A stretch of 20,603 bases of DNA, from positions 1-20,603 of IMG/VR virus record IMGVR_UViG_3300036985_000053. The stretch is one strand, 5' to 3'. The position numbers were made by a program, and so were the translations under genes. Positions 121 to 7,097 of the stretch are shown here, piece by piece (position 1 is the first letter of the stretch; each line of letters starts with the position of its first letter). Under the pieces are notes generated by a model. The model searched no databases, was not told the origin of the DNA, and worked only from the letters and a program-made list of their open reading frames with translations. The DNA comes from a virus.

Positions 121-220
121 AAAGTTTCGTACCTTACAGGTACCCACTGAAGTTTCGCGCTCTACCGAGCACCCACTGAAGTTTCGCGCTCTACCGAGCA
201 CCCACTGAAGTTTCGTACCC
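121..220. repeat. Four-copy direct repeat array (AAGTTTCG core) with internal dyads
   Basis: The core AAGTTTCG occurs at 122-129, 150-157, 179-186 and 208-215, a spacing of 28, 29 and 29 bases. Copies two and three belong to two perfect 29-base tandem units (142-170 and 171-199). The fourth keeps the first 16 bases (200-215). After cores two and three comes the dyad GCTC-TACC-GAGC (159-170 and 188-199). After core one there is a different but equally perfect dyad, GTACCT-TAC-AGGTAC (129-143). AAGTTTCGTACC flanks the array at both ends (122-133, 208-219), and TACCTTACA recurs at 130-138 and 231-239. The arrangement resembles a protein-binding array such as a terminase-recognition (pac-like) site or operator. 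Which of these it is cannot be decided from sequence. Confidence 0.85.
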
Positions 221-2442: not shown

Positions 2443-2817
2443 ATGAACGGTAACGGCATGATTCCAAAATACAAAGATGGTGGGATCGTTAAGGTTCAGT
2501 ACGGCTCCACCAAGGACAATGAAGCTATACCACCGGGTGGTATGGTACGGAGCGGTGGCAAGTTGGTTCCGCGCTACGCCAAAGATATGGGGGCCAACGA
2601 GCCGATTCGGGATATGGAAGACAGGGGTAGAGGATTAGAGGTAGTCCCCGACCGTGGCCCACCTGTGCCCGGACAGCCCACTCCGGCTGAGATCGCTAAG
2701 CAGAACAAGGCCAAGCGGGAGCAGGAAGCTAAAAATCGTAAGTACAGCGAGATGGACGCCGCAAACCAGAAAGCTGCTGCGGACTACGAGAAGCGCAAGC
2801 GCGAAGGCAAGCAGTGA
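2443..2817 (+). CDS. Hypothetical charged protein before the portal
   Basis: A 124-residue hydrophilic protein with a very strong ribosome site (GGGGGGAGAGAG at 2431-2442, abutting the ATG). The N-terminal half is Gly-rich with small turns (YKDGGIV at residues 10-16, GGMVRSGGKLVPR further on). The C-terminal third is a long Lys/Glu/Ala-rich segment (AEIAKQNKAKREQEAKNRKY) likely to be helical or coiled-coil. I see no membrane segment or catalytic motif. It is the first gene after the terL terminator and lies seven bases upstream of the portal ATG, so a minor head role or assembly-factor role is plausible. I do not recognise the family. The YxxGG[IVM]V motif recurs in two other proteins of this window. 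Confidence 0.75.
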   Translation: MNGNGMIPKYKDGGIVKVQYGSTKDNEAIPPGGMVRSGGKLVPRYAKDMGANEPIRDMEDRGRGLEVVPDRGPPVPGQPTPAEIAKQNKAKREQEAKNRKYSEMDAANQKAAADYEKRKREGKQ

Positions 2818-2824
2818 GGTAGTT

Positions 2825-4891
2825 ATGGCTGGACTGACGTTTCTCCGCGTAGTAAACAACACTGACATTGCCAAGCAGGAGCAAGAAGCGACTGACCGTG
2901 CATTGCAGGAGCGGCAGAACCAGCCCGTAATCCTCGGGATTGTAGGACATCTTCGTGAGTGTTGGGATGCAGCTAGGATGGCTAAGCGTCCCATTGAGTA
3001 CGAAATGCTTCGCGCCATGCGCCAGCGCAACGGTGAGTACGAGGCAGATAAGCTCAAGCAGATCCGCGATCAGGGTGGATCTGAACTCTACATGATGATT
3101 ACCGAGGTCAAGTGTCGTGCTGCCGAGAGTTGGCTGCGCGATATCCTGCTTGATAACGGCTCCCCCCCGTGGGACTTGTCGCCTACGCCCATCCCTGACC
3201 TGTCGCCTGTCCAGACCCAAGAGGTCCAGTCTGCGTTTGCAGAACAGGTTCTTAAGCTCGTGCAGCAGACCGGCTCTGCTCCTACTAAGGAGGAGATGGG
3301 CACGATACGGGAGATGATCGCGCAGGACTATCGCTTCAAAGTCTTGCAAGCAGCGCAAAACCGCGCTGACAAGATGAGCATCAAGATCCAAGACCAGTTC
3401 GTGCAGGGCGGCTGGGGCGAAGCGTTCAACGACTTCGTTACGGACCTCGTGACGTACCCGGCAGCAGTTATCAAAGGGCCGGTAATACGCCGCCAACGCA
3501 CACTGGGGTGGAAAGTAAACACCGCTGGCCAGACTATGGTTGAGCCCATTGAACGGCTTGGGCCAGAGTACGAGCGCGTTGATCCGTTCCGCATCTACCC
3601 TGAGCCGGGCGTCACGCATATCCATGAAGGATATCTCTTCGAGCATCACCGTCTGTCGCGCATGGAGTTGGCCGATCTGATCGGCGTTCCGGGCTACGAC
3701 GAGGACGCTATCCGCAAGGTACTGGACATCGGCAACGGCCAGTCGTGGATCTCCGAGGATATCGAGCTTTCCAAGAACGAGCAGGAGCGCAAGTTCTACT
3801 CGTACATGCGCCCGACTGAAGAGTTCGATGCGCTTGAGTTCTGGGGCAAGGTCAGCGGTAAGATGCTCATTGAGTGGGGTCTGACCAAAGAAGAGGTTTC
3901 AGATTCCGCCCGTGAGTACGACGCCAATGTCTGGGCAGTTGGTAACTACGTTATCAAGGCAGTGCTTAACTACGACCCGCTGGGCGAGAAGCCGTACTGC
4001 AAGACATCGTTCATCAAGTGCCCCGGTGCGTTCTGGGGCAAAGGCATACCCAAGATTATCGAAGATCTGCAGAGCGTCTGTAACGCTGCTGCGAGAGCGC
4101 TTGTTAACAACATGGCGATCTCTTCTGGGCCGCAGGTTGAAGTCAACCTAGAGCGTCTGCCGCCCAACGAGGACATTACTCAGCTTACTCCGTGGAAGAT
4201 ATGGCAGACAGTAAATGATCCCGTTGGGTCCAGCGCCCCCGCTGTAAGGTTCACACAGCCCGACACTAGGGCTAATGAGCTTATGGGGGTTTATGAGAAG
4301 TTCAGTCGCCTCGCGGATGACCACTCTGGTATTCCCGCGTATGTATACGGCGATCTGAACGTACAGGGCGCTGGACGGACGTCTTCAGGTTTGTCGATGC
4401 TTATGGGCGCGGCAGGTAAAGGCATTCGCCAAGTTGTTATGCACATTGACGGTGACGTTGTTAAACCTATTGTACATCGTCAGTTTGTGTATAATATGCG
4501 TTACGACGAGGATGAGAGCATCAAGGGCGACGTTGAAGTGGTCGCTAAAGGCGCAATCAACCTTGCAGTTAAAGAGACCGTTAACGTTCGCCGGATCGAG
4601 TTCCTTAACGCTACGGCAAACGAGATTGACGCTCAGATCATTGGTAAGGATGGCCGTGCTGCCATCCTCAGAGAAGTCGCTAAAGGGTTGCAAATGCCCG
4701 TGGATGACATCGTTCCGTCTCGGGAGAAGGCTGACTATCAGGCCCGTATGCAGGCAAATATGGCGTCGTCGGCTGCTATGCAGCAGTCGCAACAGCCACA
4801 AACGGCCACGCCTACTGGACCTGACGGCGCTCCCAAAGGTGGTATGGACGCCAACACGGTGCAAAATCGCAGTAGCGGGCAGGCTGCATGA
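2825..4891 (+). CDS. Portal protein
   Basis: Forms the ring at the capsid vertex through which DNA enters and leaves and onto which the adaptors dock. The protein is 688 residues, close to the large podoviral portals (P22-like class). Features seen: a helical N-terminus, a conserved core with RVDPFRIYPEPG (around residue 257), the motif SGIPAYVYG (501-509) followed by AGRTSSGLSML (516-526), a stem/crown helical region, and a Gln/Ala-rich low-complexity tail (after about 640). The core motifs are typical of podoviral portal families. I start at ATG 2825, preceded by GAGGT (2816-2820). The frame is open back to 2654 but that extension overlaps the previous gene almost completely and is Arg/Ser-rich shadow sequence. 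The stop overlaps the next ATG (ATGA). Confidence 0.93.
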   Translation: MAGLTFLRVVNNTDIAKQEQEATDRALQERQNQPVILGIVGHLRECWDAARMAKRPIEYEMLRAMRQRNGEYEADKLKQIRDQGGSELYMMITEVKCRAAESWLRDILLDNGSPPWDLSPTPIPDLSPVQTQEVQSAFAEQVLKLVQQTGSAPTKEEMGTIREMIAQDYRFKVLQAAQNRADKMSIKIQDQFVQGGWGEAFNDFVTDLVTYPAAVIKGPVIRRQRTLGWKVNTAGQTMVEPIERLGPEYERVDPFRIYPEPGVTHIHEGYLFEHHRLSRMELADLIGVPGYDEDAIRKVLDIGNGQSWISEDIELSKNEQERKFYSYMRPTEEFDALEFWGKVSGKMLIEWGLTKEEVSDSAREYDANVWAVGNYVIKAVLNYDPLGEKPYCKTSFIKCPGAFWGKGIPKIIEDLQSVCNAAARALVNNMAISSGPQVEVNLERLPPNEDITQLTPWKIWQTVNDPVGSSAPAVRFTQPDTRANELMGVYEKFSRLADDHSGIPAYVYGDLNVQGAGRTSSGLSMLMGAAGKGIRQVVMHIDGDVVKPIVHRQFVYNMRYDEDESIKGDVEVVAKGAINLAVKETVNVRRIEFLNATANEIDAQIIGKDGRAAILREVAKGLQMPVDDIVPSREKADYQARMQANMASSAAMQQSQQPQTATPTGPDGAPKGGMDANTVQNRSSGQAA

Positions 4892-6173: not shown

Positions 6174-7097
6174 ATGGCATACCCCACTTCCACCGGCTCT
6201 GCCGCCTATTCGGGCAACTTTATCCCCGAGATCTGGTCTGGCAAACTTATCGAGAACTTCTACGACGCGACGGTTCTCGCCGCAATCTCCAACACCGACT
6301 ACGAAGGCGAAATTCGTCAGTACGGCGATACGGTTAACATCCGTACCACCCCGGAGATCACCATCCGTGACTACGTGAAGGGCCAAGCTCTGACCGTAGA
6401 GAACCCCGACAAGCCGAAGCTGCAGCTTCTCATCGACAAGGGCGAATACTTCGCCTGTATCGAAGACGATATCGACAAAGTTCAGTCGGACATCGCGCTG
6501 ATGGACACTTGGTCGAAAGACGCTTCCGAGCGTATGAAGATTAAGATTGACACCCGCGTTCTGACCGACCTTCTGCCCGACATCTCGGCTACCAACAAAG
6601 GTCTGACTGCTGGCCGCATCTCGGCTTCGTTTAACCTTGGCACGACCGGCGCTCCGCTGACCGTAACCAAAGACGGCGCTGGTGGTACTTCCTCGGTAGT
6701 TGACCTGATCGTTGACATGGGCGTTGTACTGGACGAGGCGAATGCTCCCGAGCAAGGCCGCTTCCTTGTTATCCCCGCGAAGATGGCTGGTCTCATCAAG
6801 AAGTCGGAACTGAAGGACGCTTCGCTTACCGGCGACAGCATGTCCATCGTTCGTAACGGTCGCCTCGGCATGATCGACCGCTTCACGATCTATGTGAGCC
6901 ACAACCTGAACGTATCTTCTGGCAAGTACAGCCTTATCGCTGGCCACAAGATGGGCTTCACGTTTGCTTCGCAGATGACCAACATGGAGACGCTGCGCTC
7001 TGAAGTAACCTTTGGAAACATCATCCGTGGTCTTCAGGTGTACGGCTACAAGGTCGTCAAGCCCGAAGCGCTGTCGCAAGCCGTCATCAGCTTCTAA
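6174..7097 (+). CDS. Major capsid protein
   Basis: The main shell subunit, presumably with the HK97 fold. It is 307 residues, with a Ser/Thr-rich N-terminal arm (MAYPTSTGSAAYSGNF) followed by IPEIWSGKLIENFY, a beginning common in coat proteins of P22-type and related podoviruses. A central segment reads GEYFACIEDDIDKVQSDI and the C-terminal part is beta-rich. The codon choice is strikingly C-ending and G/C-rich compared with the fibre genes, as often seen in highly expressed structural genes. A clear ribosome site (AGAGGTG at 6160-6166) precedes ATG 6174. The gene is immediately followed by a strong hairpin (7104-7122). The exact coat family would need a profile search; the capsid role is supported by context and sequence together. 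Confidence 0.9.
   Translation: MAYPTSTGSAAYSGNFIPEIWSGKLIENFYDATVLAAISNTDYEGEIRQYGDTVNIRTTPEITIRDYVKGQALTVENPDKPKLQLLIDKGEYFACIEDDIDKVQSDIALMDTWSKDASERMKIKIDTRVLTDLLPDISATNKGLTAGRISASFNLGTTGAPLTVTKDGAGGTSSVVDLIVDMGVVLDEANAPEQGRFLVIPAKMAGLIKKSELKDASLTGDSMSIVRNGRLGMIDRFTIYVSHNLNVSSGKYSLIAGHKMGFTFASQMTNMETLRSEVTFGNIIRGLQVYGYKVVKPEALSQAVISF

Follow-up and report, generated by a model that had tools for sequence, protein, structure and literature searches.

Results

A repeat array upstream of the terminase genes

The window (the whole stretch of DNA analyzed, 20,603 bp from one IMG/VR virus record) comes from a podovirus-like phage and covers its late region. It includes terS, encoding the small terminase subunit (282-788, + strand). 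We assigned it from position, conservation and predicted helices; the sole family match of its product was a PHROG of unknown function. Downstream are terL, encoding the large terminase subunit (951-2336, + strand; Pfam Terminase_3 match), a gene for a portal or head-tail adaptor protein (2654-4891) and the gene for the major head protein (6174-7097), followed by tail, lysis and internal virion genes. A tRNA search of the window found none, and the window had no DNA similarity to named phages. Only two MAG contigs, both of doubtful binning, bore on the host, and we did not adopt a host assignment from them. In the related contig G023, terL (36251-38503, L189) encodes 750 amino acids, versus 461, and is apparently interrupted by an intein. 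The same contig encodes a reverse transcriptase-like protein beside a probable tail protein (49500-50549 and 47932-49200, L190), a pair that resembles a diversity-generating retroelement.

Four copies of AAGTTTCG precede terS on the + strand, at 122-129, 150-157, 179-186 and 208-215, reproducing exactly the positions given in an earlier note on this DNA. The spacings between these cores are 28, 29 and 29 bp, which do not correspond to complete helical turns, and AAGTTTCG was absent from the rest of the 20,603-bp contig on both strands. Core 1 is part of a longer sequence, CGTGTAAAGTTTCG (116-129), that is a complete match to a family motif, TGT[AC]AAGTT. Cores 2-4 (CACTGAAGTTTCG) retain just the 3' portion of this motif and have lost TGTA. 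Cores 2 and 3 lie within identical 29-bp units (142-170 and 171-199), to which the next unit (200-228) is 66% identical.

Small perfect dyads follow three of the four cores, as the earlier note had also described. All were scored on the + strand. Dyad 1, GTACCT-TAC-AGGTAC (129-143), begins on the last base of core 1; dyads 2 and 3, both GCTC-TACC-GAGC, are at 159-170 and 188-199. Core 4 has no dyad.

The tandem repeat is far above the level expected by chance. Exact repeats in the segment extended to at least 40 bases, compared with 12 or fewer in 500 dinucleotide shuffles. The dyads without the repeat are of marginal or weak significance: the probability that a shuffle equals or exceeds the observed value was 0.038 for stems of at least 6, 0.17 for stems of at least 5 and 0.053 for stems of at least 4, and the two GCTC dyads represent a single duplicated event.

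The array occupies the gap between a non-coding block of ~75 bp and the terS promoter, an arrangement kept in relatives. It begins only 115 bp from the start of the window, which does not include the early region of its own phage.

The terS promoter and the conserved non-coding block

We found a predicted sigma70-type late promoter between the array and terS (246-275, + strand), with TTGACA at 246-251, an 18-nt spacer and TACCCT at 270-275. A generic promoter scan of the window did not list it because the -10 matches the consensus poorly. The prediction is supported by conservation: the layout is kept in 38 of the 42 non-redundant relatives whose upstream regions were scored. The -10 and the terS ATG (282) are 6 nt apart, and 32 of those 38 relatives have exactly this distance. 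A Shine-Dalgarno-like string precedes terS in only 1 of the 42. The short distance and the near-absence of a Shine-Dalgarno sequence together suggest that terS is probably leaderless in the window phage and its relatives.

On the other side of the array, the non-coding block (38-115, + strand) contains ACATGG (47-52), a C-run (69-75), AGTAAACC (82-89) and AACCCAAAAAA (101-111). A loose pattern matched the block in 98 of 136 relatives, with the consensus GGGGGG.ACATGGActGg...cCCCCCc....TgTAg.aAACC.C..Aaa.CA..acCC.aaAaa. Its elements across relatives are a G-run, ACATGGACTGG, a C-run, GTAGTAAACC and ACCCAAAAAA; the window block lacks the G-run that normally precedes ACATGG. The block persists across lineages that have differing repeats, and we regard it as a candidate element for packaging or replication.

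The family motif is concentrated in the control region of relatives

We found that the motif matched by core 1 lies directly after the conserved block in most relatives. In seven long genomes, TGT[AC]AAGTT had 42 matches in 18.2 kb of control region versus 22 in 360 kb elsewhere, approximately a 38-fold enrichment in counts from related phages, which do not amount to independent trials. Next to terS, relatives have from one copy (as in G001) to several, and in some, including L098, the motif and the terS promoter are separated by a small gene. Relatives also have clusters of the motif, in both orientations, within their early control region, up to 2.6 kb upstream of terS. Inverted pairs (TAACTTGACA-N10-TGTAAAGTTA in G023 and L098) fit the expectation for dimer operators. 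When sites near terS were compared with early sites, the base that follows the core covaried weakly overall; L084 was consistent with covariation.

The earlier note had proposed that absence of the array from close relatives would refute its interpretation. Here the result was mixed. The closest relative, L084 (TerS 93% identical), keeps core and dyad but has two cores rather than four (one inter-core unit versus three); its early region holds AAGTTT-type sites. The motif was absent near terS in the named relatives Rollin and BcepC6B, and literature searches returned no relevant paper that names it. A 16-mer, ACCCACTGAAGTTTCG, occurred in eight IMG/VR contigs, presumably by chance. A gapped two-core pattern matched mostly unrelated IMG/VR contigs, and only those with terS matches were retained. 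We also considered the motif in reverse as a -35 box (TTTACA/TTGACA) and do not claim this, as no consistent -10 was found at 17 nt.

Clusters of repeats in an early region might also indicate iterons for replication or copy control. A replication protein would bind the motif, and the array would be an outlier of an early non-coding origin. In L098 and L084, the motif clusters do lie with AT-rich repeats (AGATTGT/ACAATCT) in an early non-coding region of ~1 kb. However, most relatives have at least one copy of the motif beside the terS promoter, and the operator-like repeat of G012 adjoins gene starts. We consider iterons quite improbable.

Arrays of different sequence occupy the same place in other lineages

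In 19 of 79 non-redundant relatives, the terS-proximal gap contained a direct repeat 9 bp long or longer. The repeat included the AAGTT core in ten relatives, and many of the spacings were 28-33 bp. L028 and L063 share the layout of the window, with a core, the dyad GCGCC-TGG-GGCGC and then CCCAGTAAAGTTA, 29 bp apart. In the G012/G016/L061 lineage, the units are instead built on TTGTGTA-N5-TACACAA and are 33 bp apart. The looser form TTGTG-N9-CACAA occurs 4-5 times per genome in the G012/G016 lineage, always either near terS or in the early control region; two copies form the 33-bp array before terS in G012. It did not occur in five other genomes (expected ~0.05 in each). Further palindromes are found at the terS-proximal place in L034 and L129, with no match in the early regions of these two. 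Taken together, these comparisons indicate that position and repeat style persist while the sequence turns over between lineages.

The early region of G012 also contains a tandem 54-bp repeat (contig positions 36150-36260, L198) with an inverted pair of the motif, AACTTTACA-TCCG-TGTAAAGTT, which is likely a dimer operator.

The turnover bears on whether the window array might be a functionless tandem duplication, in which slippage copied a single regulator site and copies 2-4 are now in decay. The identity of two units, the 66% identity of a third, the single inter-core unit of L084 and the loss of TGTA from copies 2-4 are all as expected for duplication and decay. But several lineages have multiple copies at this position, differing in sequence from one lineage to another, and AAGTTTCG is exact in all four window cores. 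We judge a functionless duplication to be improbable.

A probable spacer or accessory role for the dyads

The earlier note had stated that the sequence of the dyads changes while their shape stays constant. In part this was borne out. Perfect dyads of differing sequence occupy the homologous spacer in the window, L084 and L028/L063, and others are present in the 33-bp array of G012/L061. Between dyad 1 of the window and the dyad of L084, 3 of 6 pairs are altered on both sides. The pattern across the window, L084 and L028/L063 spacers is suggestive and comes from very few lineages. The generalization to the family did not hold, as a hairpin followed the core in 14.8% of cases family-wide versus a background of 12.9%. 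The dyads of the window, L084 and L028/L063 did not occur a second time elsewhere in those contigs. Their probable role is that of spacers or accessory elements.

The persistence of shape would have a larger meaning if the array were read by its architecture. A single conserved protein, either TerS or some regulator, would recognize DNA shape or extruded hairpins in a core plus small dyad repeated every ~29-33 bp, with the sequences of both replaced between lineages. We find this very doubtful.

An RNA structure was one of two possibilities that the earlier note had raised for the dyads; they would act as hairpins of a transcript crossing the array. Folding did not support this. The + strand folded no better than shuffles (z -0.97) and the - strand only slightly better (z -1.84), and we found no terminator-like site and no Rfam match. 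The array is upstream of the conserved promoter and therefore outside the terS transcript, and the hairpins have no family-wide association with cores. The perfect dyads of altered sequence in the homologous spacers of the window, L084 and L028/L063 are what an RNA element would predict, as is the slight excess of folding on the - strand, yet we regard such an element as extremely unlikely.

Genome ends and packaging

We saw no fixed genome end near the array. Contig ends were mildly more frequent at 0-250 bp upstream of terS but scattered; in G019, both ends fall at a G-run upstream of terS. In the circular contigs G023 and G012 the join is far from terS, which is compatible with permutation and not proof of it. 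With the ends scattered and the circular contigs joined elsewhere, a fixed terminus (cos or terminal repeat) at the array is not supported.

Headful packaging from a pac site is a different matter. TerS would bind the repeated cores or their shape, packaging would start here, and TerS might also repress its own promoter, as in SPP1. The array lies directly before terS, over the promoter region, a placement like that of the SPP1 pac site (PMC6316719). TerL matches Pfam Terminase_3, a low-confidence model of TerS has short N-terminal helices compatible with a helix-turn-helix, and the scattered assembly ends fit headful packaging. On the other hand, the motif also forms clusters as far as 2.6 kb away, in the early control region, and lineages differ in the sequence of their sites, with residues 10-50 of TerS keeping 59-83% identity. 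A packaging element, if one is present here, would more plausibly be the block at 38-115, which is conserved more widely. These points are not decisive; TerS proteins of the SPP1 group may read shape, not sequence. We consider a pac site at the array unlikely, although it is the main alternative to the operator model discussed below.

Discussion

A putative operator shared by early and late control regions

We give slightly better than an even chance to the idea that the array is a multi-copy operator for a phage regulator, located at the late promoter and shared with the early control region. The earlier note had named late-operon control as one possible role, and our results favor that part of it: the terS promoter that follows the array is conserved, and in relatives the motif recurs at that position as well as in the early control region.

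In this operator model, a phage-encoded DNA-binding protein, made early, would bind the repeated cores at about -166 to -67 from the presumed start site (the terS ATG). The bound protein would control the promoter from which terS, terL and the virion genes are transcribed. Control would most likely be by activation rather than repression, a direction we infer because of the position of the array relative to the promoter. The same protein would also bind the early control region, at related sites, and a single regulator would thereby couple early and late expression. Several observations weigh against this model: cores 2-4 retain just part of the motif, G001 has a single site near terS, a small gene intervenes in relatives such as L098, the array is somewhat more distant from the start site than the Alt and Ltr repeats, and the 28-29-bp spacing does not fit complete helical turns.

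The leading candidate for the regulator is a helix-turn-helix protein of ~91 amino acids. It is encoded in the early operon of all six genomes that were fetched far enough (6/6), and its Pfam helix-turn-helix matches fall below the curated cut-offs. In G023 the gene is ~15 kb from terS, and nothing in this analysis ties the protein to the motif. A ribbon-helix-helix-like protein encoded beside the motif cluster of G023 was not favored, as it is found in few relatives and has no Pfam match.

In relatives, a gene for a protein of ~99 amino acids lies on the upstream side of the array; the protein had no helix-turn-helix match and no significant fold match (model pLDDT 81). Genes of this family are often present as two paralogous copies that flank the motif-rich early control region (2188-2487 and 3934-4233 in L098; 2424-2717 and 3682-3978 in L028). 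A member is also encoded in L084 (4380-4739), where the adjacent relative is oriented the opposite way.

The operator model gives a large group of uncultured phages a testable account of their early-late switch. It combines one motif shared by the two control regions with a terS that is probably leaderless and an operator whose sequence is exchanged from lineage to lineage while its place stays fixed. Should the regulator be found, matched operator-regulator pairs could be traced across lineages.

Comparison with known systems

In phage phi29, protein p4 is a single regulator that binds between early and late promoters of divergent orientation and acts on both. It recognizes inverted repeats beside these adjacent promoters. 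The model for the window phage similarly proposes one phage regulator for early and late promoters. In contrast to phi29, the early and late sites here are 1-2.6 kb apart, and the protein is only a candidate.

The pac site of SPP1 overlaps the late promoters PL1/PL2 and the start of gene 1 (terS) (PMC6316719). The window array likewise lies at the terS gene and its promoter, and TerL belongs to the Terminase_3 family. The window site, a predicted one, differs from SPP1 pac in that its elements are not confined to the packaging site: the motif extends beyond the terS region into early-region clusters in relatives, and it differs between lineages with similar TerS.

The array most resembles the sites of the TP901-1 Alt/phi13 Ltr/RinA group, in which four imperfect or exact direct repeats immediately precede the promoter for the packaging and structural genes (PMC13123087). 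The established activator sites at these late promoters are direct repeats at -76 to -32 for Alt of TP901-1 and at -107 to -42 for Ltr of phi13 (PMC13123087). In the window, direct repeats (cores at 122-215) also precede the promoter of terS and the virion genes (246-275). The window cores are somewhat further away than the -107 to -32 of Alt and Ltr (~-166 to -67 if transcription starts at the ATG), the units are longer (28-29 bp) with dyads between them, and the motif also clusters in the early region of relatives. A regulator gene of the Alt/Ltr type was not found directly upstream of terS in relatives, and the window holds no upstream gene. The known Alt and Ltr cases are from Gram-positive hosts. 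The array, most likely a binding site for a phage regulator of the late genes, thus represents an arrangement known from a few cultured phages, here with a sequence that shifts by lineage and a place that is kept.
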